Of a stretch of 64,000 nt of DNA, positions 27,565-57,943 are shown one piece after another. Origin of the DNA: a virus. A program made the translations under genes and the position numbers. Below the pieces are notes generated by a model. The model had not been told where the DNA came from. It searched no databases and saw nothing but the letters and a program-made list of their open reading frames with translations. Location of the stretch: positions 1 to 64,000 of IMG/VR virus record IMGVR_UViG_3300033141_006329; one strand, given 5' to 3'. How positions within the stretch are numbered: the stretch's first letter is position 1; every line of letters begins with the position of its first letter.

Positions 27565-30500
27565 CTATTCAGACTCCAAATGACATGCAATTATCATATT
27601 GTCTAACAACTCTTTTTCTGGATTTATCTTACCTTGCCTAAATTCTGTTTTACCTTGTTGTATTATTTCTGAAATCATTTCATTTTTGGAAGCATGATCC
27701 GAAGATAATGAACCAAACATTTCATCTATTATAATAGGACAATCCCAAGCTAATAATCCATACAAATCCGACTCTCCAAATTTCTGACCACCGCCCCTTT
27801 TCTTTCCTGCTGTTGGTGCTAATGTCTTGGATACATAAGGCCCTACTCCCCTTGATGCCAGTTTCTTAGCTGATAATTGTTCCAACTTCTGTATAAGAAT
27901 AAATCCTATTGTAACGGGATCCGTCGTCATATTAAATTCCGGTAATTTCAGTTTATAACTAGGTTTCAATCCCAATATAGCAAGTGCCTCCAATATATTT
28001 GTTCTACTTGGGCCTTTGAACGGTGGAACTATAATAGACATATACCCCTTTTTCACTACTTGATTTTTCAAATCATTGAAACCTTTATCAGACATCGATT
28101 TTAATTTAGATATAACATTCTTACTATATTCTTTATTATCAGTACCGTCAAGTAATTCTAAAACTGTTCGAAGTAGAGATATAAATCTAGCTTTAGGTAA
28201 ATCTTTAATTCTACTAGCTAACTCTTTAGCTATCAACCCAACATGTGCTTCAGCCGTCTGACCCGTATTCATCCTATTTACAACCCCCAATGGGTTTAAA
28301 ATAATATCAACCTTTTCTCCCCAGGGTGTTATTGGCATGTTTTCATCTTTCTCTATTATAGAAACAACTCCTTTATTCCCATGTCTATTATTCATCTTAT
28401 CGCCTTTTTCCATTTTCAGATGTTGCTCCATAGTGAACTTTATCATTATACCATCAAATCTCTCATTTTTTTCTTTGAATGATCCTAAAGGATATTTACC
28501 ATTTATCTTAGTAAAATGTCCTCTAAATTCTTCATATACCGATTGTAATTTCTCAGGTATATCTTTAACATTTGCATATACTTCTATATTAGAAACTATT
28601 CCTCCTTCAGTTCTAAGATGTTTATATGCCTCAACATCATATGCTGCTTTTGAATGAGTTATGAGTATACCACCCTTATCTATTGTATCTCCAACATTGA
28701 CTATAGATAAAACATCATCATCTGGTTCTAAATATACTTTTTCTTCTTCTACGTGTACTGATATATATTTCTTGGCAGCACTTTCGGATATAACAATCCC
28801 GTCTTCAAAATTGTAACCTTTCCAGGCCATAAACGCGCATAATAAATTAACACCATTTGCTATACATCCTTCAGATATATTCGCACCTTCAGCCAATATT
28901 TGATCTCTCTTGACTGTTTGTCCTATCGCTACAGTGGGTTTAAATTTGCTTAAACCATTCTTACCTGATCCTGATTTGAGAACTACAGAACGAGTATCTA
29001 TGGGTACTTCTTTGCCTGTATCCTTATCTTTAACTATTATCATATCTGGTTTAATCGAAATAATAACGCCATTCACAGGACTCTTTTTTATAAAATTCTC
29101 ACTAAGTAAGTTCGTAAGTAAGGATTCATATCCAGTTTGAACTGCTGGTGGTTCTGCCCCCTCCGTTGGTATTACTTGTCTCGATTGGCCTGTACCCATC
29201 ATTACTCTACACCCATCATCACTTTCAACAAACGGAACCATTGCGGGACCCACACTCAATATTTCTGATGGTTTTACCAAGCTGGGATCTTTCATTGCAA
29301 ATGTGCCTCTAGCATTAGATATAGTTGCCCCCACAGTTAGATGCTGTTGTATTCCAACCATAGGACTATCTGGTGTTTCTAGTGGATCTATATTACCATA
29401 ATATGTATAATGTATATTTAATGCCTTGTGTGGAACTGCTGCTTTATCTGGTATACCTCCTATACCAACTGGCGTGATCCTCGTCATCATAGATAGTTCT
29501 TCCATAGGATTTGAGGTTTCAAGTAATTGACAATTTGGAGAATTTGTTACCTCAGAAAAAACCTTTGTCGGTGATAATGATAATCTAGCTGTTTCATCCC
29601 CTCCTAATTTTTTAGATAAATATTCATTATATGCCGATAATACTTGTTTCTGTATCTGGTTTGTAAACACTTCGGATGTTCTAACCCTTTGTTTATCCAT
29701 AGAGTTTCTATCATCTACTGTGCCTTTGACTACTTCTTCGCATATATATTTTATTACTGTAGGTAGTGTTGTTGGATCACCTTTGGATAATAATACTTCT
29801 CTAGCTACGGGCGTGAGTATAAACTTCCATGATTGGTCTATCCTATATATACAATTCCTTGTTCCTATTTCTTTTATTAATACCCTTTCCCAAAAACCTT
29901 TTTCTTCTATTTCAAAATGGTTTACAGGAAATGATACTACAGATCGTTTAAAAGATGAAATAACTTCTTCTCCTACTATTGAGCTGGTAGTAAATGTTAT
30001 AAATCTATCGTCTAACAATTTTATAGAATCGGGTTTCTTTTCTATACCTATTTCATATTTAATTTTGAATAGTTCCATAGTTTCTTTGAATCCATAATTA
30101 TATCCCAGAAACATCATTATAGGTAATTTGTAACCTGACATATATGCCATCAGATAAGGAGACTTTGTTTGTTGACTATAGATAGTTAGTTTGGCATATG
30201 ACGTTTCTAATCTTCCATGATATGGTTTATAGAAAAATATGGGATGAGTTATTAATTGATTTACCAAAACTTTGGGTTGACCATTTATAACAAATGTACC
30301 ATTCTCTGTTAGGTGTGGTATATCCAATTCTACCGTGTGTACTTCTCCTTCAGGGCCAGATAATTGTATTGTATATCTATCTTTCAATGTCTTCTTTAAT
30401 TCACCCGCAGGACTCTTTATGGGATTTATTTTAACACTTTTAACTTTGAGTGGTAAGTTTTCAGTTTCAAGAGGTTTAAATACATTTGTCAAATCTTTCA

Positions 30501-31617
30501 CGAGTAGTTCGGAAAAATCCTTTTTTCTTTTCTCCATTATATGGGTAGGAACTTGATTATCCACTAATTCTGCTGGTCTGGATATTCTAACTATCTCATT
30601 TCTAGATGTGCTTTTAACTTTGGGTCTGGTTAGAATGGTTTCCGAATATTGTTTCACCATCTTATCTGCTACTTTTTTCTTCTCCTCCTTAGTTTTACCC
30701 TTCATTCTTTTTGCTACAGTTACTGCTTTATCGGGATCACCTGTTACATGATAAACTATTGCAGATGTTACAACTTCATCTGTATCCAATTCATCTATAT
30801 TGACATTTCTATATTCGGGTACTGAATCCATCATATTTTTTATTATTGACTTTACTGCTACTTGAGTTTTTTCGGACCCATATTTCAGTGTATCTGTATT
30901 ATTAACAACTAATTTGGATACTACATCAGTCTCGGCATTCTCAACATCTTTGGGATCTGAACTTTCTAACATAGATAACATCGATCTAATTCTGGCAACA
31001 TTTACTGGTTTATCTTTATCATACAACAAAACAAATCTACCCCCAGAATGATCATAAAAGAATAATAATAATTTATCAAATGGTATATCAGTCCCCTCCT
31101 TCAACATGTTATATATTGGATATATTTTTCTACGTCTTAAACTTTTCATTATAGGTGCATCGAGATTAACTGAATAAACCAATACCCTCTGAAATAGATC
31201 TTCAGGCACACTTCCTACTGCCTCTATAATCTTACTTATAATCATAGCACCTCTACCTGTATTAAACCTCGTCAGTTTAAATTTCTTGGTACTATAATTT
31301 ATCAAATTACTCAAATCCAAATAAAAATTCTTACCTATAACATTTTTATAATCGCCTATAAATCCTTTTACTGGGCGCAATTTATGTTCTATTAATAATT
31401 TCTTATATTGGGGAGTCAGAAGAGTTCGAGGTTTCTTTGTAATTGGAACAAACACATGTCTAACTTGTGTCACCTTTATTCTCATGGCTGTAAATGCTTC
31501 TAAGAATTTATGATTTTCTGTAAGCATAGTAAGACTTATATTTTTTCCATCTATTCCAGCAGGAGGAATAATTAGACTATCTACGGGTCTATATGGTTTG
31601 ATATTTTTAAATTGCAT
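27565..31617 (-). CDS. rpoB: RNA polymerase beta subunit, single polypeptide
   Basis: 1350 residues, close to the length of bacterial beta, in one piece. Signatures include RNIPCL-type region II (ITPVGIGGIPDKAAVPHKAL), GYNFEDGIVISE (about residue 930-941, bacterial beta motif), GDKMNNRHGNKGVVS (about 1075-1089; its Lys/Arg/His contact the nascent RNA and initiating nucleotide) and a C-terminal clamp part (GGQKFGESDLYGLLAWDC). Phages of the phiKZ group have beta split in two; this one is unsplit and closer to host beta. Its ATG overlaps the beta' stop as TAATG, so both are translationally coupled. Confidence 0.95.
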   Translation of the reverse strand: MQFKNIKPYRPVDSLIIPPAGIDGKNISLTMLTENHKFLEAFTAMRIKVTQVRHVFVPITKKPRTLLTPQYKKLLIEHKLRPVKGFIGDYKNVIGKNFYLDLSNLINYSTKKFKLTRFNTGRGAMIISKIIEAVGSVPEDLFQRVLVYSVNLDAPIMKSLRRRKIYPIYNMLKEGTDIPFDKLLLFFYDHSGGRFVLLYDKDKPVNVARIRSMLSMLESSDPKDVENAETDVVSKLVVNNTDTLKYGSEKTQVAVKSIIKNMMDSVPEYRNVNIDELDTDEVVTSAIVYHVTGDPDKAVTVAKRMKGKTKEEKKKVADKMVKQYSETILTRPKVKSTSRNEIVRISRPAELVDNQVPTHIMEKRKKDFSELLVKDLTNVFKPLETENLPLKVKSVKINPIKSPAGELKKTLKDRYTIQLSGPEGEVHTVELDIPHLTENGTFVINGQPKVLVNQLITHPIFFYKPYHGRLETSYAKLTIYSQQTKSPYLMAYMSGYKLPIMMFLGYNYGFKETMELFKIKYEIGIEKKPDSIKLLDDRFITFTTSSIVGEEVISSFKRSVVSFPVNHFEIEEKGFWERVLIKEIGTRNCIYRIDQSWKFILTPVAREVLLSKGDPTTLPTVIKYICEEVVKGTVDDRNSMDKQRVRTSEVFTNQIQKQVLSAYNEYLSKKLGGDETARLSLSPTKVFSEVTNSPNCQLLETSNPMEELSMMTRITPVGIGGIPDKAAVPHKALNIHYTYYGNIDPLETPDSPMVGIQQHLTVGATISNARGTFAMKDPSLVKPSEILSVGPAMVPFVESDDGCRVMMGTGQSRQVIPTEGAEPPAVQTGYESLLTNLLSENFIKKSPVNGVIISIKPDMIIVKDKDTGKEVPIDTRSVVLKSGSGKNGLSKFKPTVAIGQTVKRDQILAEGANISEGCIANGVNLLCAFMAWKGYNFEDGIVISESAAKKYISVHVEEEKVYLEPDDDVLSIVNVGDTIDKGGILITHSKAAYDVEAYKHLRTEGGIVSNIEVYANVKDIPEKLQSVYEEFRGHFTKINGKYPLGSFKEKNERFDGIMIKFTMEQHLKMEKGDKMNNRHGNKGVVSIIEKDENMPITPWGEKVDIILNPLGVVNRMNTGQTAEAHVGLIAKELASRIKDLPKARFISLLRTVLELLDGTDNKEYSKNVISKLKSMSDKGFNDLKNQVVKKGYMSIIVPPFKGPSRTNILEALAILGLKPSYKLKLPEFNMTTDPVTIGFILIQKLEQLSAKKLASRGVGPYVSKTLAPTAGKKRGGGQKFGESDLYGLLAWDCPIIIDEMFGSLSSDHASKNEMISEIIQQGKTEFRQGKINPEKELLDNMIIACHLESE

Positions 31618-34600
31618 TATTTTTGCCTCTCCTCCGTTAGAGGTATTCCCATTAACACTTTCTCTATGGGGCTTTCTGGTGCCCTATCACTTATCATACC
31701 ATATTGAATTGCTTTCCCGAAGTTTTCGAACGAAAATCCCAATGGCCATGATATTATACTAGGTAATGTTTTTATAGAGTACATTTCTGGATTAAATGGT
31801 TCTATTAATCTGGCGGGTTGTTGTGGATCTTTTTTTGCTCTCAATATATTAGATATAATCACCTCCAAATGAGATGAATCCCATCCCCCAGTAGCAGCCA
31901 ATGCTTTATAAAACTTATTATATATTGTCGATACATCTTGCCAGGGATATTTTCCACCAACCAGTTTATCTAATTCTCTTGCAAGTTCTGTAAAGTTTTC
32001 TTGTGTCGGTTCCGCATATAATATCTTATCACCTTTAGTATACATATATGATATATAGGAATCGTCTTCCTCTACTTCTTCTGGGGTATAGATTTTAATA
32101 GGCTTTTCTATAGCTACAGGTATCTCTAAATCACCAAACGTAAGTGTAAAGTGACCTACCTTCATATCCAGATATTCTTTTTCTTTAACAATTGGAGAAT
32201 GTTCATATATAGATTTATTTATCCTAAGCATAACAAATTCAGAATTGCTAAATAGATCATCATCTTCTTGTTTAAAAGATTCTCTGATTTTAGGTTCAAT
32301 ATAATCATCTACTTTAGTCATAAGCTCTTTTATTATATCTAGTTTATTCAATATTAAAACTCCACCAAGATGAAATGAATTGTGGTTCTGCACTGCCCCT
32401 AACATAAATTCATTGGTCTCTGTTTTTATATCATATACAGGATCAATCCAAGTATATATCTCTTTTGCTACCATTATTGGATCGAATCCCTTTATAGGAT
32501 TATCATTCTTTTTAAATGACATAGGTTTAAATTCAAGGTCTTCTGTTACCTTTTCGCAAGGTATCATTTCTTTCTGTGCTGGTATGCAAATCTTTACAAC
32601 AAATTCTACCAATCCTCTCGCATCTCTATCCTTACAATGGAAACGATTACTGAGAGCAGAAATTGTAGTATGATATCCTAATTTTAAAGATATCATTTTA
32701 AACTGTTGTGTTAGATTATAACTTCGTATATATGTGCTAAACCTAGTGCAACCATGTTCGGGCATCGCACCTATAGTATCCAGATACCCTGCCAAAAAAC
32801 TTTTCAACCAATCTTTATTATAACTTAAAAAATCAGGTGCCAATCTCACATCCCCTACACCAATACCCAAAACTATACCTTCAACAATATCTTTATTATA
32901 AGTAAACACTACGTATGTTGCAGATTCTACTGTTGATCTTTTTTCAATTTCCTTGAGTTTAAAATCTAAGCGTTCGCTTTCTCTTATTAATCTATCTATT
33001 TGGTCTTCATTTTCTATACGTATATCAATTGTGTCTGGAGATTTTTTCCCTACACTACCTCTAGCACAATATGCCCCTATAACATAACCTGCTGTCTTGG
33101 GTCTAATTCTATCTTTATTTATAATGAATGGTTCATTGTCTATCCATATGGCATCACCCTTGACTACATCCCCTGCAAGTTTTTCCACCACCTCATTATC
33201 TTCGGCTATTAAATATTTGGTATGCCATGATGTATATGTCTCTTTACCGACTAATCTAAATTCTGAATTCTTGTGCCATTTACATATTGGATTTTTCTTA
33301 ATCCATAAGGGATGATCAGCTTGACATACTAAAATGTGTCCTGTGTTAGTTCCAATGACAATCATTTTATCTTTGGGTGGATGTTTTTGCATTACAGATG
33401 TTTTAACCATTCCATCTTTTCCCTGGATACTACTCACAAATTCTTTTGTTTCTAGATCGCCTTCTATCACTGGTTCTACATCTATATTATCCCAAAGGTC
33501 ATCCATAGTAATCCATCTGTCATTATGGTATACTAAACCTTTAGATGACTTCATTATTTTCTCACTGAGCGAGGCTACTTGTTGTACTGCAACCATTCCC
33601 ACATTTTCTGTTTTTAACTGGGCTAACAATTTACCATAACATGTTCTACAAATTTTCTTACTTTTGCAAAATATAGGACTCCTTAGATTAATAACTCTGC
33701 CTATCATATCTTTAGTTAGTGGTTTCAACACACCTTTCTCGTCGTGAACAAATCTACCTGTCATCCTTTTGAATAGATCCTCTGTAAGTTTAAGTTGTAG
33801 TGTCTGTCTCGTACCACAATTGCCATTATTTACATCTGCTTGAACATTACCAACAACATATATCATCTTTCTATAGCCATATCCACCTGCCCCTGTATTT
33901 AAGGATCTATCTATAGTTCCTTTCCTTGATCCAGCGGCAGCTTCAAAATATTCTTTCGGTGTATATCCTTCATTTATAGACTTGGTTATGGGCGGCAAAA
34001 CATTTCCCATAGGATCTTGAACTAGTCCTTTACATACCATCATTTGTCTTATTTGATTCATTCCTTTAGATCCACCAGATGCCACAATATAATATAAATC
34101 TGAATTCGTATCTTTAAAATGTTTCAATAATGCTACTTCTATTTTATCAAGTATGTCTGATTGTTCTGAAACAATTTTAGTGGCACTTAATTCATCCTTC
34201 ATTTTTATTAAGTGTGGCGGGATTTTGAGTTGTTCCAAATTCAAAGTTTTTGGATATATTGTATTATATTTAAATCCTAATCTCATCAGTCTATCTGTTG
34301 TATTTGCAAAATCTACATCGCTCTTTTCTATGATCTCTTTTAATATATTTGTAATTGTTTTCTTACTTACATCAGCATCTACGAAAGGATACCACTGCGG
34401 CAAAACATTATTAAATATTATTCTGCCTGCTGTTGTTTTTATTTTCTTTCCCTTGTAGGTCATTTCAACTTTATGAGCTATATGTAATTTTTCTGCATCA
34501 GCTATAGAAGAGATGGATTTAACTTTAGGATCTTTTTGGGTGGCAGCAGTAAGTGTGAATATTCCTACGATTACATCTTTAGTTAATTCGAATATGGGAT

Positions 34601-36461
34601 CATTAATAGAATCCTTACTATGTACTGTTATCATTTTATCCTTAACTTCTTGTTGGGCTTCTTCGGACATTGGAGCGTAGAGAGCCATTGTATCATATAA
34701 AAATATACCCGTGTCTGTGGTAAATGTTTTATAATCCTCAACTGTAAAATCGTAACCAATTGTCTTATTCGGATCATGTTGTATATTCAGACAAGTTGCG
34801 GGTATAATTTCTATTTCCTTAGCATTTTGTTTGTGTAACAAATTTTTAAATGATTCTGATATATTGGATTCTTCTATAATGTGAGAAGGGATTGTGATCG
34901 ATTTTTGAGTATAATTTTTATTCCTGATACAATATCTAACATCATTCGTAACATCATCTGTATTAGTAAAATCTGGATGTTTTAATAACTTCTTGGGACA
35001 CCAAACAATCCTCCCTCTTTTTAAGGGAGGGGTAGATTTTACAATCTCAATATATTCTCTTAATTTTCTTTTTTTCTCAGGGTGGTTTAAAAGAGTTTGT
35101 AGACGTATGAGAAATTCAGAATATTCTTTTCGTATTGGAATGTATAAAACATAATAATGACGATATTCAGCTGGATCTATTATAGGTATTTTCTGTCCAT
35201 CTATCCCTAATGTATAGTTTTTAATATCTACTGAAATCGAACTCTCTATACCTAAACGATAATAAAGAACATATCGAACATCTTCAATGAGTTTTTTAGA
35301 TTTGGATGTAGCGGAAACTCCTCTGGGTCTAACCATACCATCTGTATCAATATATCCTGCAAATAATCCCATCACAAAATCGTCTGTGGAATTTAAAACC
35401 CAATCGGGAAGATGCTTATCAGAACAGGTATTTCCAAATTGATTTATATTAAATGGTACTTTTCTATTATATCCCCATCTTGTTGCCGGTTTATAACCAT
35501 TTCCATTTTTATCCTTTAAATTATAGGGATGATCATATTCTCGTAATTGATTTCTAAGTGGGGGTACTCCTATAAAATCTTCCAATAGCTCTTGAGCTAT
35601 ATTTGTCCACCCATTTCCAATGTCAGTATTTGAAGAATGTAATAATGAGATCCTTTGAGAAATATCACCATCACCTAATAATGCACCTATATAATAACCA
35701 AACTTTTCTTCGGTTATATTATTTTGGATTTCTTCATTTAATATAAATGATCTAGCATCTTTTGATGTCTTGGGTCTGCTCATAGATCTAATTAAATAAT
35801 ATCTTTTAGGGTCTTCAATAATTTCTTCGGGCGTGACTTTTCTGATTTCATCCTGATTATAATCAATAGCAACGACAGAATGATTATTAGATATCCATAA
35901 TTCCTTAACATCGCCTATAAGAGTATTTTTCTTCCTCCTATTGACAGAAAACATTTTGATATTTTCATGAATCGACCAATGGCTTATTTTTTTATATTCA
36001 ATTTTTCCATCATTGTTAATAGCTTGACAAAAAATTTCATCTAAAACGCTATAATTTTTAACAACTCTACCACCATTCTTACGTTTTTCATATTCTAATT
36101 CACATCTAAATTGTTTGCAAAAATCTGAAATATGAATTCGCATTGGAATATAATTTTCATTTTCACGTCTGTAAAGTCTTAAAAAACAATAACTTGAGTC
36201 ACCATCGAAATCAAATCCGTACTTTACCGATGCTGCGGGATGTACTTCCATTGTACTTCCTTCCACAATTTTAACATAAGCCCCTTGAGATCTAGCACTA
36301 TGAACATTAGGATCTCGTTTGTATATTACAACTTTCCCAGCATCCTCTATCTCTCGTTTAGCAACATCAAAAATTACATCATGTATAGCTTTGGGAACTT
36401 TATACCCCCGACTTATCATTTTTAAAATAAGTCTTATCTCTTCTGTTGTAGCTTGCTCCAC
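31617..36461 (-). CDS. rpoC: RNA polymerase beta' subunit, C-terminal part, with two inteins
   Basis: 1614 codons. After removal of two inteins about 722 residues remain. Extein pieces: residues 1-88 end in VKYGFDFDGD, the catalytic Mg-binding loop (NADFDGD in bacteria); next TMALYAPMSEEA follows after intein 1. Then NTGAGGYGYRKM, the zinc-site CKSKKICRTCYG and ENVGMVAVQQVASLSEKIMK, which corresponds to the bacterial [22 protein letters not shown] stretch, and after intein 2 SFHLGGVL (bacterial TFHTGG). The GEPGTQL part is not conserved. The N-terminal part of beta' is a separate gene at 37058-37981. A small membrane-type gene lies between them. Confidence 0.93.
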   Translation of the reverse strand: MEQATTEEIRLILKMISRGYKVPKAIHDVIFDVAKREIEDAGKVVIYKRDPNVHSARSQGAYVKIVEGSTMEVHPAASVKYGFDFDGDSSYCFLRLYRRENENYIPMRIHISDFCKQFRCELEYEKRKNGGRVVKNYSVLDEIFCQAINNDGKIEYKKISHWSIHENIKMFSVNRRKKNTLIGDVKELWISNNHSVVAIDYNQDEIRKVTPEEIIEDPKRYYLIRSMSRPKTSKDARSFILNEEIQNNITEEKFGYYIGALLGDGDISQRISLLHSSNTDIGNGWTNIAQELLEDFIGVPPLRNQLREYDHPYNLKDKNGNGYKPATRWGYNRKVPFNINQFGNTCSDKHLPDWVLNSTDDFVMGLFAGYIDTDGMVRPRGVSATSKSKKLIEDVRYVLYYRLGIESSISVDIKNYTLGIDGQKIPIIDPAEYRHYYVLYIPIRKEYSEFLIRLQTLLNHPEKKRKLREYIEIVKSTPPLKRGRIVWCPKKLLKHPDFTNTDDVTNDVRYCIRNKNYTQKSITIPSHIIEESNISESFKNLLHKQNAKEIEIIPATCLNIQHDPNKTIGYDFTVEDYKTFTTDTGIFLYDTMALYAPMSEEAQQEVKDKMITVHSKDSINDPIFELTKDVIVGIFTLTAATQKDPKVKSISSIADAEKLHIAHKVEMTYKGKKIKTTAGRIIFNNVLPQWYPFVDADVSKKTITNILKEIIEKSDVDFANTTDRLMRLGFKYNTIYPKTLNLEQLKIPPHLIKMKDELSATKIVSEQSDILDKIEVALLKHFKDTNSDLYYIVASGGSKGMNQIRQMMVCKGLVQDPMGNVLPPITKSINEGYTPKEYFEAAAGSRKGTIDRSLNTGAGGYGYRKMIYVVGNVQADVNNGNCGTRQTLQLKLTEDLFKRMTGRFVHDEKGVLKPLTKDMIGRVINLRSPIFCKSKKICRTCYGKLLAQLKTENVGMVAVQQVASLSEKIMKSSKGLVYHNDRWITMDDLWDNIDVEPVIEGDLETKEFVSSIQGKDGMVKTSVMQKHPPKDKMIVIGTNTGHILVCQADHPLWIKKNPICKWHKNSEFRLVGKETYTSWHTKYLIAEDNEVVEKLAGDVVKGDAIWIDNEPFIINKDRIRPKTAGYVIGAYCARGSVGKKSPDTIDIRIENEDQIDRLIRESERLDFKLKEIEKRSTVESATYVVFTYNKDIVEGIVLGIGVGDVRLAPDFLSYNKDWLKSFLAGYLDTIGAMPEHGCTRFSTYIRSYNLTQQFKMISLKLGYHTTISALSNRFHCKDRDARGLVEFVVKICIPAQKEMIPCEKVTEDLEFKPMSFKKNDNPIKGFDPIMVAKEIYTWIDPVYDIKTETNEFMLGAVQNHNSFHLGGVLILNKLDIIKELMTKVDDYIEPKIRESFKQEDDDLFSNSEFVMLRINKSIYEHSPIVKEKEYLDMKVGHFTLTFGDLEIPVAIEKPIKIYTPEEVEEDDSYISYMYTKGDKILYAEPTQENFTELARELDKLVGGKYPWQDVSTIYNKFYKALAATGGWDSSHLEVIISNILRAKKDPQQPARLIEPFNPEMYSIKTLPSIISWPLGFSFENFGKAIQYGMISDRAPESPIEKVLMGIPLTEERQK
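32379..33548 (-). other. Intein 2 in beta' with degenerate LAGLIDADG endonuclease
   Basis: 390 codons. It starts SSKGLVYHNDRWITMDDL (block A-like, Ser1) and ends VYDIKTETNEFMLGAVQNHN followed by Ser+1, with the normal His-Asn end. Removing it joins SLSEKIMK to SFHLGG, aligning with TMRTFHTGG of host beta'. The two dodecapeptides read GYVIGAYCARGS (about residue 1130 of the ORF) and FLAGYLDTIGAM (about 1226). Arg and Ile replace the acidic residue before the final Gly, so endonuclease activity is probably lost while splicing is kept. Confidence 0.88.
34692..36197 (-). other. Intein 1 in beta' with intact LAGLIDADG endonuclease
   Basis: 502 codons inserted directly after the catalytic FDFDGD loop. 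It begins SSYCFLRLYRRENENYI (Ser1) and ends GYDFTVEDYKTFTTDTGIFL, then YD, followed by Thr+1. Removal restores FDFDGD-TMALYAPMS, in register with DFDGDQMAVHVPLS of host beta'. The dodecapeptides IGALLGDGDIS (about ORF residue 261) and LFAGYIDTDGMV (about 370) keep both catalytic acids. The last residue is Asp rather than Asn and no His precedes it, an uncommon variant of the splice junction. Confidence 0.88.
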
Positions 36462-37045
36462 TATAATTTCCTCATAATTTTCTTTTTCTGAAGCTCCAAT
36501 TTTTGAATAGCCTTTAGTATCTTAAATTTACACAAATCAGGATTATCTGATTCATCACAATTCTTCAATTGATCTATTAATATTGCTTTATAATCATCTA
36601 AGGATTTAATTCTACATACTATCCTATCTTCACCTTTCAAATTTTTACACGGTCCATACAATTTTGTATTATAATAATCAAAAGCTTTTTTGACAATAAA
36701 AATACCAAGAATTGCAGCAGGTATACCTATAGCTAATTTTTTAGCTAAGGGGATATTACTCTTCAATTTATCAATACCTTTAGTTATATCATCACTAATG
36801 TTTCTCGCATTTTTAGATGCAGTAGAAATATCTTTAGATGTGCCTGATATTTTCTTAAATATATCTTTGAATCCCTCCGTATAATATAATAAGAATTTCT
36901 TATATTCGTATAATCTATCAGACATATTGGAATCAGATATCATTACTTGCTCCAAAATATCTTCCAATAGCTCATCGTTAGAAGAATTTATATCTTTAAT
37001 TATATCCTTTATTTTACTCGTGTAATATTCTTCGCTCAAATGCAT
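36461..37045 (-). CDS. Hypothetical membrane-associated protein inside the beta' locus
   Basis: 194 residues. The first 100 are helical and Ser/Asp/Lys-rich, then a hydrophobic segment (about 104-121, KLAIGIPAAILGIFIVKKAF). The last 60 have spaced cysteines (GPCKNLKGEDRIVCRIKSLD, LKNCDESDNPDLCKFKIL) in a coiled-coil setting. It lies between the two beta' genes: 12 bases after the N-part and 1-base overlap with the C-part. It has no resemblance to RNA polymerase. I do not know its function; it may be a virion protein that travels with the operon. Confidence 0.7.
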   Translation of the reverse strand: MHLSEEYYTSKIKDIIKDINSSNDELLEDILEQVMISDSNMSDRLYEYKKFLLYYTEGFKDIFKKISGTSKDISTASKNARNISDDITKGIDKLKSNIPLAKKLAIGIPAAILGIFIVKKAFDYYNTKLYGPCKNLKGEDRIVCRIKSLDDYKAILIDQLKNCDESDNPDLCKFKILKAIQKLELQKKKIMRKL

Positions 37046-37057
37046 AGCGTTTCTCCT

Positions 37058-37981
37058 CTACATTAATAGATCTGGGTCTAATTCTTTCCCTAAAACTTCT
37101 TTAACAGCTATATGAAATTCTTCGGGTATATTTTTTGATTGGGGTGAATTAACCAAACCGTATATTATAATAGGTTCAAATATACTACATGCCACCTTGA
37201 ATGGTAATCCAACTGTTCCTAAATTTAATTCTGGATTAGGTGTAATTACTGCCCTCGCTGAGAAATCCACACGTTTGCCCAATAATAAATTTCTAACTAT
37301 TCCATGTTTTTTAGATACCGATACTCTAATTAATTCATACAATTCCTTAATCAAGTTTTGCATCTTATAACTCAATATATCGAATATCGGCCCAGACACA
37401 CCTTTCAACTGATTAGATTGTATAATTATTTTTCTATAGAGAGCATTCAATTCACCTATTTCTGGTTTCTCTCCAGGGCTTTCAGGGATTGATATCTCTC
37501 GATACCTGGGAGGAATAACTATAAGTTTAGACATAAAGAACAGATCTTTTTTTATATTGCTATATATCATCTTTATAAGTTTATTCCTATCGCCACCCTT
37601 TTCATCTTCTCTAAATTTTATTTTTTGAATATTATCAATAAAAGAAGAAAACCCATCCAACTCCCCTTCAGGATCTTCAACCAATAATCCATCATCACCT
37701 ATAGAATATATTTTCTCGCTTGATATTAATGGTTGTATCTTTCTTTCTATCCTTTTATTTAAAATATCAAATAGTGATGGATGTATGACATTACAATTCA
37801 ATTCTATCCAGGAATAACTCTTTGCTCTATCAGGGGAAGCATCTAATCCAAATGTATCCTCTGACATCAATCCTTGTGGATGATATGCATAATTTCTGCC
37901 CATAAATATCTGGGGTGTAGATATAGGACCAATGCTATTATTTTTCCTTATAAAATCATCAGGACTAAGGATCTTAATCAT
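37058..37981 (-). CDS. RNA polymerase beta' subunit, N-terminal part
   Basis: 307 residues starting at ATG 37981 (MIKILSPDDFIRK); the frame extends 9 bases to a GTG that I do not use. The signature KKHGIVRNLLLGKRVDFSAR, then AVITPNPELNLGTVGLPFKV, matches the bacterial [20 protein letters not shown] and VITVGP..CGLPKKMA regions that form the lid/rudder and switch area. SKLIVIPPRYREI matches the PPDLRPM area of host beta'. Together with 31617-36461 it makes a two-piece beta' split just before the catalytic loop region. It overlaps the upstream gene by 8 bases. Confidence 0.9.
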   Translation of the reverse strand: MIKILSPDDFIRKNNSIGPISTPQIFMGRNYAYHPQGLMSEDTFGLDASPDRAKSYSWIELNCNVIHPSLFDILNKRIERKIQPLISSEKIYSIGDDGLLVEDPEGELDGFSSFIDNIQKIKFREDEKGGDRNKLIKMIYSNIKKDLFFMSKLIVIPPRYREISIPESPGEKPEIGELNALYRKIIIQSNQLKGVSGPIFDILSYKMQNLIKELYELIRVSVSKKHGIVRNLLLGKRVDFSARAVITPNPELNLGTVGLPFKVACSIFEPIIIYGLVNSPQSKNIPEEFHIAVKEVLGKELDPDLLM

Positions 37982-38378
37982 CCAACCCACCCAGATTAGA
38001 TAGACTACCCAAGTCTCTAGTTTTCTTCAATATCTTTTCCAAATTACCATTCACTTTGTATGATCTAGGAAATATCAAAGCTTTACGCTCCAAAGCCTTC
38101 ATATAGAATTCTATTTTATTTACAAATCCCTTATATTTTTTATCCTTTGTCTTATTGTATAGTCTCTTAGCACTAGACAAACTGCGTTTCAACACCGAAA
38201 TAGATACACCACCATATTGATTTTTAACTGCGAATACTGGGGTTCCATTTTTACCAACTGAAAGAAATGATTTGGAATCTGATTTGTATAACTTTTTCCT
38301 GTTGTTTCTACTTTTGAAAAACTCTGCGTCAGGTATAAATCCTGCTTCATGTACTATGTCTCGTATATAATCTATCAT
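37974..38378 (-). CDS. Hypothetical basic protein
   Basis: 134 residues, Lys/Arg-rich (KSRNNRKKLYKSDSKSF, KRSLSSAKRLYNKTKDKKYK) and probably nucleic-acid binding by charge. It ends LSNLGGLDD and overlaps the beta' N-part gene. No family recognised. Confidence 0.6.
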   Translation of the reverse strand: MIDYIRDIVHEAGFIPDAEFFKSRNNRKKLYKSDSKSFLSVGKNGTPVFAVKNQYGGVSISVLKRSLSSAKRLYNKTKDKKYKGFVNKIEFYMKALERKALIFPRSYKVNGNLEKILKKTRDLGSLSNLGGLDD

Positions 38379-53139: not shown

Positions 53140-53238
53140 TTAACCCTGTAGTATCTTTAAGTTTGGATTACTGGTCAATATATCTGGCACATTTTCGAGT
53201 ACCTCTATCGGCTGTGATGACTTATTTTGGTCCTTCAT
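53140..53238 (-). CDS. Tiny ORF overlapping the actin-like gene
   Basis: 32 residues, MKDQNKSSQPIEVLENVPDI then LTSNPNLKILQG. ATG 53238 has AAGGA 7 bases upstream and lies within the end of the actin-like gene. A longer frame to 53334 exists but is lysine-rich out-of-frame reading of that gene. Confidence rests on the binding site and the tight fit to the next gene (2-base gap). Confidence 0.5.
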   Translation of the reverse strand: MKDQNKSSQPIEVLENVPDILTSNPNLKILQG

Positions 53239-54319
53239 TTTTTGATCCTTCTTTTTTTTCTTCTGGTTTTTGTCCATCTTTTTTCTCCTTTTTTGATTGT
53301 TGTGATGTTGCATATAATAAACAACCTTCTGCAACTGCTGTTAACGGATCCTCTGCTTGTCTTATTTCAGATATAGCATATGGAAAATTTTTAGTATTAT
53401 CAAATATGGATTTAAACATATCTAAAAATCCTTTAGGCTTACTAGTGCCACCACTGACTATTATAGGAATCTTTTCATCTATACTTAGACCTTCGGCATT
53501 CTGATTAAACTTTGCTATTATAACTTTCAATACATATTCTATGAGTGATTTATAATAAAAACTCACAGCCCCTCGAATTCTTCTTTCCCTTTTATCTGCA
53601 CACATAGGATTCATAAGATCGAAATCAGGTTTTTCTTTTATAGCCGTAACTCTATTTGGTATTATATTCAGAGATAAAGCTGCATTAGCATCAATCCAAT
53701 CCCCGGCTCTACTTACTGCAAATGTTAGTGTTGGTATACCTTTATATGAACATGCTATATTAGTTAGTCCTGCACCAAAACTACAGGCTATGCCACTATA
53801 TTTTTCTTTCTTACATTGAGAATAAATAATAGCCATTGCTTCATTCAATGGTTTAGATTTATAACCTAAAGTTGAAAAAATTGAATTGAATACTCGCTCA
53901 TGATATAATACTGGGGGTATCTCTAAATCGATGGCTGCTTCGGGTATCGAATATACACAATAACCATCATCCACTTTTCCGCCTATTAATCTTTCCATCA
54001 TCAATGTCAATACATCTAGGGCATCTATTTCTTCTGGTGATATGACCCCCTGCGCCATAGGTCTTTTAACCTTATAATTAAACATATTGGCAAACCTATA
54101 GGCATCTTCCCCTATTATATATAATGATTTAGAATCATTCATTCCGTCATCATATTCCACATAATCTATTCCTGTATCAGTTAAATCAGATAGATTAGAA
54201 AAATCATCTGTTACTGGTACAAACATATTTCTCATCGAAGAAATTTTAGCCTTTCCTCCCTGTATTTGCTTGGCGCACACGCAGAACATGGTCCCTATAT
54301 CACATCCTATGATTTGCAT
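53222..54319 (-). CDS. Actin-like ATPase (ParM/MreB/FtsA-fold)
   Basis: 365 residues. IIGCDIGTMFCV (residues 3-14) is a phosphate 1 loop, FGAGLTNIACSYKGI (about 183-197) a phosphate 2 loop, and IIVSGGTSKPKGFLDMF (about 290-306) the adenosine motif of the actin/hexokinase/Hsp70 superfamily. The C-terminal 30 residues are a Lys/Glu tail. Phage actin-like proteins may build filaments for DNA segregation or positioning. The overall length fits the ParM-like branch, but the branch is not certain. The gene sits in the recombination/packaging group, with a coiled-coil gene directly upstream. Confidence 0.8.
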   Translation of the reverse strand: MQIIGCDIGTMFCVCAKQIQGGKAKISSMRNMFVPVTDDFSNLSDLTDTGIDYVEYDDGMNDSKSLYIIGEDAYRFANMFNYKVKRPMAQGVISPEEIDALDVLTLMMERLIGGKVDDGYCVYSIPEAAIDLEIPPVLYHERVFNSIFSTLGYKSKPLNEAMAIIYSQCKKEKYSGIACSFGAGLTNIACSYKGIPTLTFAVSRAGDWIDANAALSLNIIPNRVTAIKEKPDFDLMNPMCADKRERRIRGAVSFYYKSLIEYVLKVIIAKFNQNAEGLSIDEKIPIIVSGGTSKPKGFLDMFKSIFDNTKNFPYAISEIRQAEDPLTAVAEGCLLYATSQQSKKEKKDGQKPEEKKEGSKNEGPK

Positions 54320-54660: not shown

Positions 54661-55247
54661 AGCATATACTCCTCTTGAAGTGTGGTACCTGAATACATAA
54701 ATGGTTCTATTAAGTTACACCAATTGTACGGAGAATGAGGCACTATTTCAAAATTTAATTTATAGATACAACTATTCTTAAATTTAGACGTTACAACATT
54801 ACCACAATTCCCACAAAAATTAAGATCCGTATTCCTTTTTAGTAGTATATGAAATTCATTAAGACTTAGAAACTGATCTGACCACATTTCAATATTATCT
54901 GCTCTGTAATAAATATTCTCATCAAATCTACCATTCATATAAACCCAAGAATAATCATCAACAAATAAGTTTCTAATAGCGCATCCTCTTAGTCCATGTT
55001 GTATTATATTCGGAGCGTGTACTACATTTTTAATAGGATTTTTTAAATTATCTATATGCAATTCAAATATATTATTAATGTTTATAAAATTATTATAAAT
55101 ATGTCGTTTATCAGATCCTGGTAAAGGAGATGATACAATCAACCATGTTCCGAATGGATCTTTCTTATAACTCTCTAGAAAATGTTTATAACAAATTGTA
55201 GTTTTACCTGACTGTCTCGGTGCAATATTTAATGTTCTCATCCGCAT
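54657..55247 (-). CDS. P-loop ATPase, terminase/helicase-like
   Basis: 196 residues. IAPRQSGKTTICYKHFLES (residues 8-26) is a Walker A, IVSSPLPGSD a following strand, and IRNLFVDDYSWV (about 92-103) a Walker B-like strand. This resembles the N-terminal ATPase half of large terminases but there is no nuclease domain, and a pair of cysteines (CGNCGNV) lies after it. It is much shorter than a terminase, so it may be a separate small ATPase. It overlaps the NrdJ end by 10 bases. Confidence 0.6.
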   Translation of the reverse strand: MRMRTLNIAPRQSGKTTICYKHFLESYKKDPFGTWLIVSSPLPGSDKRHIYNNFININNIFELHIDNLKNPIKNVVHAPNIIQHGLRGCAIRNLFVDDYSWVYMNGRFDENIYYRADNIEMWSDQFLSLNEFHILLKRNTDLNFCGNCGNVVTSKFKNSCIYKLNFEIVPHSPYNWCNLIEPFMYSGTTLQEEYML

Positions 55248-57943
55248 GCTCCCGAATTTGCACCACAGTTATTACAATTAAAACAAGATCCTACTCTCTG
55301 CATAAGTTCTCCACATACGTCACATATTGGGGTAGAGTCATCAGAAGATGCTTTGTTTGTCTCTATCTTACTTTCTTGTTTCTCTTCCTTTATCTCTTTT
55401 ATTAATCCTAATGATAATTTATCATTTTCTGATAAAAATTTATTACCCAGATATCTTGCTAAATAGTCCACTATAGAAGTTGCAAATCTTATATCTTCAT
55501 TTCTCGTTATACCAGCTGGTTCAAATCTAGAATACATTAGTTTGGATACTATATCTCTAAGTGGTACTCCATATTGTAAACACGTACTAACCATTATAGC
55601 AAGTGAATCTAATAATCCTGATAGTGTACTGCCTTGTTTAGAAACAGTAAGAAATATTTCTCCTATTTTTCCTGTAGGGTATTTGCCTATTGTTAAATAA
55701 CCCTCAACTGCTCCTATAGAAAATTTATGAATAAATGCATCTCTTTCTTCGGGTAGCTTTGATCTGAACGGTTCACATTCTTCACATTTCTTACATTCGT
55801 TTCTAATATTCTGTTTAACATCTTTTTCATTTCTTAATGGTTGATATACCTTTGAACCATCTCTGTAGACAGTTACTCCTTTTAAACCTCTTCGCCACGC
55901 TTCTAGATATAATTTATATATATCATCTACAGTTACATAAGAAGGAAGATTAATTGTTTTTGATATTGCGCCGGATAAAAATGGTTGTACTGATTCCAAC
56001 ATTTTTATATGACCCATATAATCTATACACCGCTTACCATTGTTTGGAATACTTGCAGTATCAAATATAGAAATATGATTTTTATTCAAAACATTACTAT
56101 TTTCTAAATGTCCTTCAGAACATAGTTCTTCTATAATTCTTCCTGTATCATATTCCGAATATTGTAAATTCTCCAAAGCTTCTCTTACTGAATTGTTTAC
56201 AGTTTTTATTATTGCTCCTTTATTACCCGATAATGTCTTATATTTAATAAGAGAATAATCTGGCTCTACTCCGAATGTATCACAATCCATCATAAAAGAC
56301 GTTGTTCCTGTAGGGGCTAATAGTGTTGCCTGAGAATTTCTAAACCCTCTATTATCATCTATCTTACTTTTAATATCATCCCAAATCTTAATAACATCTT
56401 TACTTAACTGATTTATAATATTTTTTTTGTCAGATATTATAGTAGATGTATTATCTATTAATTTTTTTTGATTATCATAATGCTGATTCAATACTTTATA
56501 AAAAGGTTTTTTATTTTCTTCAAATTTTTCAAATGACCCCTGCTTATCTGCTAATATATTACTCGTATCATATGCAATTCCCGTTAATAAAGCTGTTATC
56601 AAACCTGCAATATTTCTACCATCATCACTATCATAAGATAATCCTAACCACATTAACAATGCTCCGAGATTAGAATATCCCAATCCTAATGGTCTAAACA
56701 TATGTGAATTCTTAGTTATTTTTCTTGATGGGTATGAAGAGTTATCTACTATTATATCCTGAGCAGTTATAATTGTCCGAACTATATCCTTAAATCTTTT
56801 TGTATCGAATATTATATCTCCTTTATTATTTTTATAAAAACACTTTCGTAGATTTATAGATGCGAGATTACATGAAAGGTTTCCTGGCGCTGCTAGAAAT
56901 TCGCTACAAGGATTACTTGTCTTTATTTCTCCGCTATTAGCACATGTATTCCATCTATTTATATTTCCCGAAAATTGAACTCCAGGATCGGCAGTTTTCC
57001 AAGCAATCTCAGATATTTCTTTTAGTAAATTTCTTGCCTTAAATTTCTCACATCTTTCACCTGTAAGAACATATTTAGTCCACCATTCACCATCCTTCTC
57101 AACTTGTTCCATAAACTCATCAGATAATCTAACCGATATATTTGTATTTTGAAAAAAGACCTCATCCGACATCTCGTACCCATCACTATTAACAAATCCT
57201 GATTCTTTCAACATATGTAATTTGAGTTCTTCATTTTCCTTACAATGTATAAATTTTTGAATATCAGGATAAATATCGTCAATGCAAACCAACTTGGCAG
57301 ATCTTCTTAACGTTCCACCGGATCGAATTATTCCAGCCGATGTGTCAGCTGCTTTTAAAAAGGATACAGCTCCACTCGCAAATCCCCCGCCTCTAACTCT
57401 CTCTTTAGAACTCCTCAATGAAGATAAGTTTGAACCACTTCCACTTCCTCCTTTAAATATAGCTGCCTCAAGCTTAATATTATCATAAATACTTTCCATA
57501 TTATCTTCCACATCTAAGAGGAAACAAGCTGAACATTGGGGTTTATCTACAATACCAACATTGAAATATATAGGTGAATTAAATGTAAAATACTGATTTA
57601 TTTGATAGTATTTAAGCTTATATTTAAAATCTTCATACTCATCATCAACAAAATATCCATCCTTTTTACCCCAGTCAGATATTGTGTTTGCTACCCTATC
57701 AATCATTTGTCTTATTGAATTTTCTTTTACCTTAGCATTATTGCATAAATATTTACTACTGACTATCTTAACAGCAGCATCACTAAATGTATCTGGAAAT
57801 TCGACCTCTTCATCAAAAATTATATTACCATCCTTATCTTCTATCTTAGCTTGTCTTTTAACAAATTTTATTTCCTTGTATGGATCTTTTTTATCGTTTG
57901 TAGAACGCATTGTATCCTTTTGTTTTTCTTCGGGCTTTCCCAT
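55238..57943 (-). CDS. nrdJ: Class II (B12-dependent) ribonucleotide reductase
   Basis: 901 residues. FNVGIVDKPQCSACFLLDVE (about 127-146) is the start of the catalytic core, NPCSEFLAAPGNLSCNLASI (about 332-351) the NPCSE active-site loop, and LLAPTGTTSFMMDCDTFGVEP the late loop. Near the C-terminus are CDVCGELMQRVGSCFNCNNC and GACG, a zinc ribbon and redox cysteine region common in NrdJ. It reduces ribonucleoside di- or triphosphates with adenosylcobalamin, needs no oxygen and no small subunit. It provides dNTPs for phage replication, along with the 20710 and 15177 genes. No NrdB-like gene is present, which fits class II. Confidence 0.93.
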   Translation of the reverse strand: MGKPEEKQKDTMRSTNDKKDPYKEIKFVKRQAKIEDKDGNIIFDEEVEFPDTFSDAAVKIVSSKYLCNNAKVKENSIRQMIDRVANTISDWGKKDGYFVDDEYEDFKYKLKYYQINQYFTFNSPIYFNVGIVDKPQCSACFLLDVEDNMESIYDNIKLEAAIFKGGSGSGSNLSSLRSSKERVRGGGFASGAVSFLKAADTSAGIIRSGGTLRRSAKLVCIDDIYPDIQKFIHCKENEELKLHMLKESGFVNSDGYEMSDEVFFQNTNISVRLSDEFMEQVEKDGEWWTKYVLTGERCEKFKARNLLKEISEIAWKTADPGVQFSGNINRWNTCANSGEIKTSNPCSEFLAAPGNLSCNLASINLRKCFYKNNKGDIIFDTKRFKDIVRTIITAQDIIVDNSSYPSRKITKNSHMFRPLGLGYSNLGALLMWLGLSYDSDDGRNIAGLITALLTGIAYDTSNILADKQGSFEKFEENKKPFYKVLNQHYDNQKKLIDNTSTIISDKKNIINQLSKDVIKIWDDIKSKIDDNRGFRNSQATLLAPTGTTSFMMDCDTFGVEPDYSLIKYKTLSGNKGAIIKTVNNSVREALENLQYSEYDTGRIIEELCSEGHLENSNVLNKNHISIFDTASIPNNGKRCIDYMGHIKMLESVQPFLSGAISKTINLPSYVTVDDIYKLYLEAWRRGLKGVTVYRDGSKVYQPLRNEKDVKQNIRNECKKCEECEPFRSKLPEERDAFIHKFSIGAVEGYLTIGKYPTGKIGEIFLTVSKQGSTLSGLLDSLAIMVSTCLQYGVPLRDIVSKLMYSRFEPAGITRNEDIRFATSIVDYLARYLGNKFLSENDKLSLGLIKEIKEEKQESKIETNKASSDDSTPICDVCGELMQRVGSCFNCNNCGANSGACG

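Follow-up and report, generated by a model that had tools for sequence, protein, structure and literature searches.

Multisubunit RNA polymerases (RNAPs) of the phiKZ/AR9 group of phages have a beta' subunit whose break follows the double-psi-barrel (DPBB), as in cyanobacteria, and their beta subunit is split too (PMC7598289). Bacterial-like beta and beta' of tailed phages (mReC) have been surveyed in IMG/VR, where only chains of at least 800 aa carrying NADxDGD were retained (Weinheimer & Aylward 2020, PMC7481178). RNAP inteins are known from archaeal A' and A'' subunits (Mja rPol A', Mja rPol A'', Nph rPol A'') and from eukaryotic second-largest subunits (PMC1635734). Split inteins combined with free-standing endonucleases have been reported as "fractured genes" (Dassa 2009); a split PolB intein with an HNH gene was reported in phage MIJ3 (PMC6892783), and the atypically split intein of PolB16 OarG has an IntN of 15 aa (PMC10189870).

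The window analysed here, a 64,000-nucleotide part (positions 1 to 64,000) of the IMG/VR virus record IMGVR_UViG_3300033141_006329 (223,370 bases), very probably encodes a bacterial-like phage RNAP whose beta' consists of two polypeptides broken inside the DPBB, the C-terminal one being made as a precursor that contains two class 1 inteins, which are predicted to splice. Like the phiKZ/AR9 group, it has a phage multisubunit RNAP with beta' as two polypeptides, but its break lies inside the DPBB domain before DFDGD, its beta is unsplit, and inteins are present. With the mReC phages it shares bacterial-like beta and beta' in tailed phages from IMG/VR, although a beta' of this type would fail the survey filter because of its 310-aa N-terminal piece and its motif GFDFDGD; phage RNAP surveys that filter by chain length and motif will overlook enzymes of this kind.

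Like the archaeal and eukaryotic RNAP inteins, those of the phages sit at conserved sites of large-subunit genes, several of them with LAGLIDADG endonucleases (PMC1635734). Unlike the archaeal ones, compared here at the level of the gene, they interrupt phage beta', directly after DFDGD (site 1) and at several trigger-loop points, and the site-1 elements have a C-terminal Asp and mostly split alleles. Each of these parts belongs to a kind already known. What appears to be new is where the inteins sit, how the parts are combined, and a family that is Asp-terminated and mostly split. The literature searched contained no inteins in phage beta' or at these trigger-loop sites, no such Asp-terminated family and no DPBB-internal break, a silence that is weak evidence of absence at partial coverage.

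Organization of the RNAP locus

The genes are transcribed from the minus strand in the order beta'N, a 194-aa gene, beta'C and beta. The beta'N gene (37058–37981) encodes the N-terminal piece of beta', which ends inside the DPBB domain according to the Rpb1_2 match, phrog_2986 and the alignment of homologues; its first GTG would give 37058–37990, while the ATG at 37981 agrees with the homologue starts. The beta'C gene (31617–36461) is a stop-free frame of 1614 aa, comprising 722 aa of extein and two inteins. Extein part 1 (36198–36461) ends with the catalytic DFDGD and is followed by intein 1 (34692–36197; 502 aa, aa 89–590 of beta'C); extein part 2 (33549–34691) runs from TMALYAPMS through the bridge helix to EKIMK; intein 2 (32379–33548; 390 aa, aa 972–1361) comes next, and extein part 3 (31617–32378) extends from SFHLGG to the C-terminus. 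These features all lie on the minus strand, as do the 194-aa gene (36461–37045) and beta (27565–31617).

A preliminary description made from the letters alone had already placed beta' in two genes, separated by an unrelated membrane-type gene, and had called beta a single bacterial-like chain. The ORFs and the Rpb1_2 matches agree with the two-gene arrangement; the intervening 194-aa gene has one putative transmembrane helix, is not an RNAP gene, matched no family in a Pfam search and is replaced by other genes in sister phages. Beta is indeed one chain of 1350 aa, matching bacterial rpoB (PRK00405) at 3.9e-101, and no insert was found in it. Searches with PF14890 and PF14528, of which PF14890 itself matched weakly, detected no further inteins in the whole record, and no second RNAP was found in this record, which is linear and perhaps incomplete.

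Relatives were collected with beta and beta'. A beta search led to loci L001 (contig G001) and L002 (contig G002), 51–52% identical, and a beta profile additionally to L011 (contig G003) and L012; a beta' profile gave 78 loci, in each of which the intein sites were mapped. The interpretation rests on about 45 related phage loci.

The break in beta'

The Rpb1_2 profile covers positions 1–42 in beta'N and picks up at 90–149 in beta'C, so that the break falls inside the DPBB-bearing domain, upstream of DFDGD. The AR9 beta' chain (426 aa) aligns to beta'N over residues 27–305 and then extends beyond the break of the window. In a tree of 50 beta' exteins, the window, G001, G002, L028 and L051 form one clade (support 100), and the DPBB break is present in all five members. 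The genes between the two halves vary across the clade (194 aa; 106 aa; several small genes; 120 aa), and the beta' of deeper relatives is unbroken, at about 1000 aa, which indicates that the break is derived and common to the clade rather than an assembly fault.

Joining of beta'N and beta'C by trans-splicing was considered and rejected, as nothing resembling an intein end, whether tail or head, is seen at the break in the aligned clade members. Since no such tail is seen, we infer that the two chains assemble non-covalently. An RNAP large subunit broken within its catalytic double-psi-barrel makes the assembly of this barrel from separate chains testable.

Other breaks were observed among the relatives. 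In L035, L036, L046, L049 and L074, an ORF of its own encodes the beta' C-terminus past the trigger loop, so that beta' has an additional break that is independent of inteins; in L012 (L012:9914-14212), beta occupies two ORFs (902 and 521 aa), reflecting a true split or a sequencing error.

Two inteins in the catalytic loops

Excising the two insertions from beta'C restores FDFDGD/TMALYAPMS and EKIMK/SFHLGG, as the preliminary description had proposed; in an alignment with PDB sequences, the restored motifs fall in register on DFDGDQMAVHLPLS and LTMRTFHTGG of cellular beta'. The 722-aa beta'C without inserts can be aligned with cellular beta' across both DFDGD and the trigger loop, and its catalytic residues are intact in the homologue alignment. 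Both insertions occupy the two most conserved catalytic elements, as was claimed, the DFDGD loop and the trigger loop, and they are not due to chance, since precisely these codons lack an insert in homologues. After splicing, the expected junction peptides are FDFDGDTMALYAP for intein 1 and EKIMKSFHLGG for intein 2. Both inteins of the window are contiguous, with IntN and IntC on the same polypeptide.

Intein 1 lies right behind the last Asp of DFDGD. It begins with Ser1, contains NNHS (block B His) and YDFTVED (block F Asp), and ends in FLYD followed by Thr+1, so that the canonical His-Asn of block G is absent; class 1 is accepted to include inteins with a C-terminal Asp and inteins that lack the penultimate His (PMC4031507), though the variant Asp-cyclisation steps can be slow. 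The Asp at both ends (GD/S...YD/T) leaves the junction ambiguous by one residue from the sequence, and the boundary given is the sole reading with nucleophiles at both 1 and +1. A start at Cys4 (SSY/C) was rejected, for it would leave three residues after DFDGD that occur in no intein-free allele, and an assignment to class 3 was rejected as F:4 is Asp, not Cys, judged by eye. A LAGLIDADG_3 match (6.8e-13; 35226–35381, minus strand) includes the second motif, and both acids are kept (GALLGDGD, AGYIDTDG), suggesting an intact-looking endonuclease. The predicted structure is of low confidence as a whole (pLDDT 53), with the splicing part mostly at 65–86; the best Foldseek matches of this low-confidence model are all inteins, the top one at 3e-4 and only two below 0.001, and the intein 1 profile found no match among PDB sequences.

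Intein 2 separates IMK from SFHLGG inside the trigger loop, just ahead of the conserved His. It carries Ser1, ADHP, VYDIKTETNEF, a terminal His-Asn and Ser+1, as required of class 1, and it matches Intein_splicing at 6.2e-6, which is under Pfam's curated cut-off. Its AF2 model (pLDDT 76, pTM 0.82) is matched by Foldseek to the TliVMA, PhoVMA and PI-SceI inteins, with E values down to 6.9e-19 (TliVMA), and the predicted structure has the Hint fold. Both catalytic acids of its LAGLIDADG motifs are lost (CARG, LDTIG, versus CAEG, IDGDG in L043 and L044), from which we judge the endonuclease to be dead. Judged by motifs, both inserts are inteins, intein 2 also by its good predicted fold. Of the intein blocks expected earlier, those of intein 2 are found, including His-Asn, and the nucleophiles and blocks B and F of intein 1 as well, but not the block G His-Asn of intein 1. 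A stretch of the site-2 intein profile, GKDGxVKxxxIQKHxP (profile positions 35–63), also matched SUMO2/3 in the PDB at 4.9e-5, probably by chance.

Introns are known in the RNAP genes of AR9-type phages. A reading of the inserts as RNA introns, for which a 2026 jumbo-phage review that ties introns to these phages could also be invoked, or as assembly artefacts, is hardly conceivable: the Rfam search of 27–39 kb found no intron, the inserts keep the reading frame open and show the motifs and folds of inteins, and the same sites are occupied in independent contigs.

As inteins, the inserts would most likely take the following course. Translation would yield beta'N and the 1614-aa beta'C precursor; intein 1 (Ser1, Asp C-terminus, Thr+1) would excise itself and ligate DFDGD to TMALY, intein 2 (Ser1, Asn C-terminus, Ser+1) would likewise ligate IMK to SFHLGG, and the 722-aa product would then bind beta'N and beta non-covalently. 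In the established structure of RNAP, the Mg-binding loop is a catalytic element, and so is the trigger loop. Because the inserts are located in both of them, there is a strong case that the unspliced precursor would be inactive as long as these loops stay interrupted, and the polymerase very probably must shed its inteins before working.

Intein alleles in related phages

Intein-free alleles, proposed earlier as a check, are present in related phages at the same codons and are the rule among the mapped loci. At site 1, DFDGD is then followed directly by Q, T, A, M, V or other residues, and at site 2 (the position of intein 2) the sequence reads M[RK][TS]FH[TL]GG or a close variant, with no extra residue in either case. 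Within the clade, G001 is empty at site 1, reading ADFDGDTLAIYAPIS, and G002 is empty at site 2, reading LSERIMKAFHLGG; most of the family is empty at each site as well. All five clade members have at least one active-site intein.

Site 1 carries a mini-intein of 203 aa in G002 and a split intein in G003, with an IntN of 129 aa and an IntC of 45 aa about 77 kb apart. The G003 halves (L015:1120-2643 and L011:7890-9923) lie on opposite strands of one 118-kb contig. In L063 and L096 the intein is also split, and the gap holds a DUF7487-bearing, nuclease- or HNH-like gene. Further site-1 inteins occur in L108, L109, L110 and L111, the last three split; in L108 the IntC alone is visible, and in L110 the C-extein is broken. 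L096, L109 and L111 belong to a second, paralogous type of phage RNAP. The first residue is Ser in six alleles, Thr in one and Cys in one. The C-terminus is Asp in all nine visible cases, followed by T, S or C. One of the two site-1 scan patterns demanded a C-terminal Asp, but the window, G002, G003 and L063 were recovered without that pattern.

G001 has a second complete RNAP (L010:1110-6878), whose beta' is unsplit and intein-free, and other relatives also have two.

At site 2, L028 has a contiguous intein whose endonuclease acids are likewise lost (by eye), and L043 and L044 have contiguous inteins with intact acids. The intein is split in G001 and L051, where an IntN of 25 and 23 aa, respectively, ends in a stop, followed by a gene of 689 or 572 aa, which contains DUF7487 repeats and weakly matches the MTES_1575 nuclease, and then by IntC. 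Given the clade's DPBB break and the split site-2 intein, the beta' of G001 comes from three separately encoded pieces, and trans-splicing presumably joins two of these. The very short IntN resembles that of PolB16 OarG (PMC10189870), but the host gene is an RNAP gene and the IntC is long; that of G001 can still be aligned with intein 2 of the window in its LAGLIDADG region. The trigger loop has two other intein sites: H/TGG (site 3), occupied in L028, L048 and L074, in L028 only three residues (SFH) downstream of its site-2 intein, and a point one residue beyond it in L109 (TFHE/S...HN/SGVV). L028 (L028:9414-11780) holds two different inteins in one trigger loop, with these three extein residues between them.

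One or both inserts might have ceased to splice, remaining as domain insertions or cleaving only, so that beta'C, if working, would be a set of non-covalently held fragments. Pointing that way are the Asp for Asn and the missing penultimate His of intein 1, the decayed endonuclease of intein 2, and the tolerance of this polymerase family for beta' chain breaks elsewhere. We consider this unlikely: every allele seen retains the nucleophiles at 1 and +1, the block B His and the block F Asp, at about 30–55% intein identity, the Asp is the common state of the site-1 family rather than a single decay, and the insert positions leave an active enzyme no room. Both inteins of the window are thus probably active in splicing.

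The arrangement of a gene half with IntN, a nuclease or HNH-type gene, and IntC with the other gene half, seen in G001, L051, L063, L096, L109 and L110, is like that of fractured genes (Dassa 2009); compared with these and with MIJ3, the target here is RNAP beta', and the window's inteins are contiguous. At two fixed codons of a single enzyme, almost the whole course of intein evolution can be seen: empty sites, mini-inteins, inteins with an endonuclease, inteins whose endonuclease is dead, and split inteins. The set also supplies candidates for natural split inteins, some with an Asp C-terminus and some with N-fragments of 23–25 aa, which could be put to practical use if they are active.

The clade has many DUF7487-repeat nuclease genes, with 23 DUF7487 matches in G001, and in G002 one such gene (L009:7647-9989) lies immediately downstream of beta'C.

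Mobility and origin of the inteins

The same inserts are empty, mini or split in related phages, suggesting that they are mobile elements. In the tree of 50 beta' exteins, the intein label shows at least six gains or losses over well-supported branches. Between distant hosts, inteins are more similar than the genes that carry them, with identities of 55% versus 31% for G003/L096, 51% versus 38% for L043/L044, 45% versus 36% for L044/G001 and 43% versus 36% for window/L044, which argues for lateral movement; inside the window's clade the trend is opposite (window/G002, intein 31%, host 56%). The pattern fits lateral movement, including between paralogous polymerases, and homing of the inteins would be in line with it. 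The inteins would thus occupy near-invariant codons as mobile elements, which in sister phages may have given rise to mini-inteins or to split inteins with separate endonuclease genes.

The preliminary description had further suggested that the need for splicing may provide timing control. In a switch of this kind, whether temporal or environmental, delayed or conditional splicing would keep the enzyme inactive up to a certain point of the infection. Splicing of inserts in catalytic loops would gate activity, every member of the window's clade is affected at one loop or more, and conditional splicing is known for other inteins (PMC6195587). Nevertheless, which sites are occupied varies from member to member of the clade, relatives are mostly empty, and endonuclease genes together with lateral transfer account for persistence without benefit. 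A switch is therefore very unlikely, and the suggestion was not borne out: sporadic gain and loss, endonuclease genes within or beside the inteins, and movement between hosts form a selfish pattern. The earlier observation stands as made and its interpretation stands as regards the inteins and the split beta'; it missed that intein 1 ends in Asp and that the endonuclease of intein 2 is dead, and it did not include relatives with split inteins or a DPBB break unlike that of the phiKZ group.

A bolder picture, which we regard as improbable when taken as a whole, would make the site-1 elements a separate Asp-terminated, mainly split family of phage-RNAP inteins jumping between paralogous polymerases, and the clade polymerase an enzyme of two-gene half-barrels with obligatory cis- or trans-splicing in both catalytic loops, where splicing speed would set the time of activation.

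A cellular source of the inteins was set aside, as the scan of a bacterial and archaeal genome collection found no relative of either intein at that sensitivity. Among isolated phages, no close relatives were found; the L043 intein and the L063 IntN had no match, and the matches to intein 1 were confined to regions of LAGLIDADG type within genes for terminase, helicase and thymidylate synthase.

Other genes of the window and its relatives

Several otherwise unrelated proteins have a common N-terminal motif, [ILV]SE[EQV][YC][ILV]xE (e.g., MYISEQYLNE). It is carried by L001:4622-4942, L002:4295-6259, L002:8725-9252, L009:2278-2958, L009:3771-4274 and L009:4292-4657, and in a looser version by the window gene 36461–37045, with 0 internal occurrences in 73,469 residues. 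The motif resembles the T4-type capsid-targeting sequence with (I/L)xE cleavage; if it is such a sequence, the genes between beta'N and beta'C would encode virion cargo. The window also encodes an actin-like protein (53222–54319) with a Volactin family match at 1.2e-61, and a class II (B12-dependent) ribonucleotide reductase (55238–57943).
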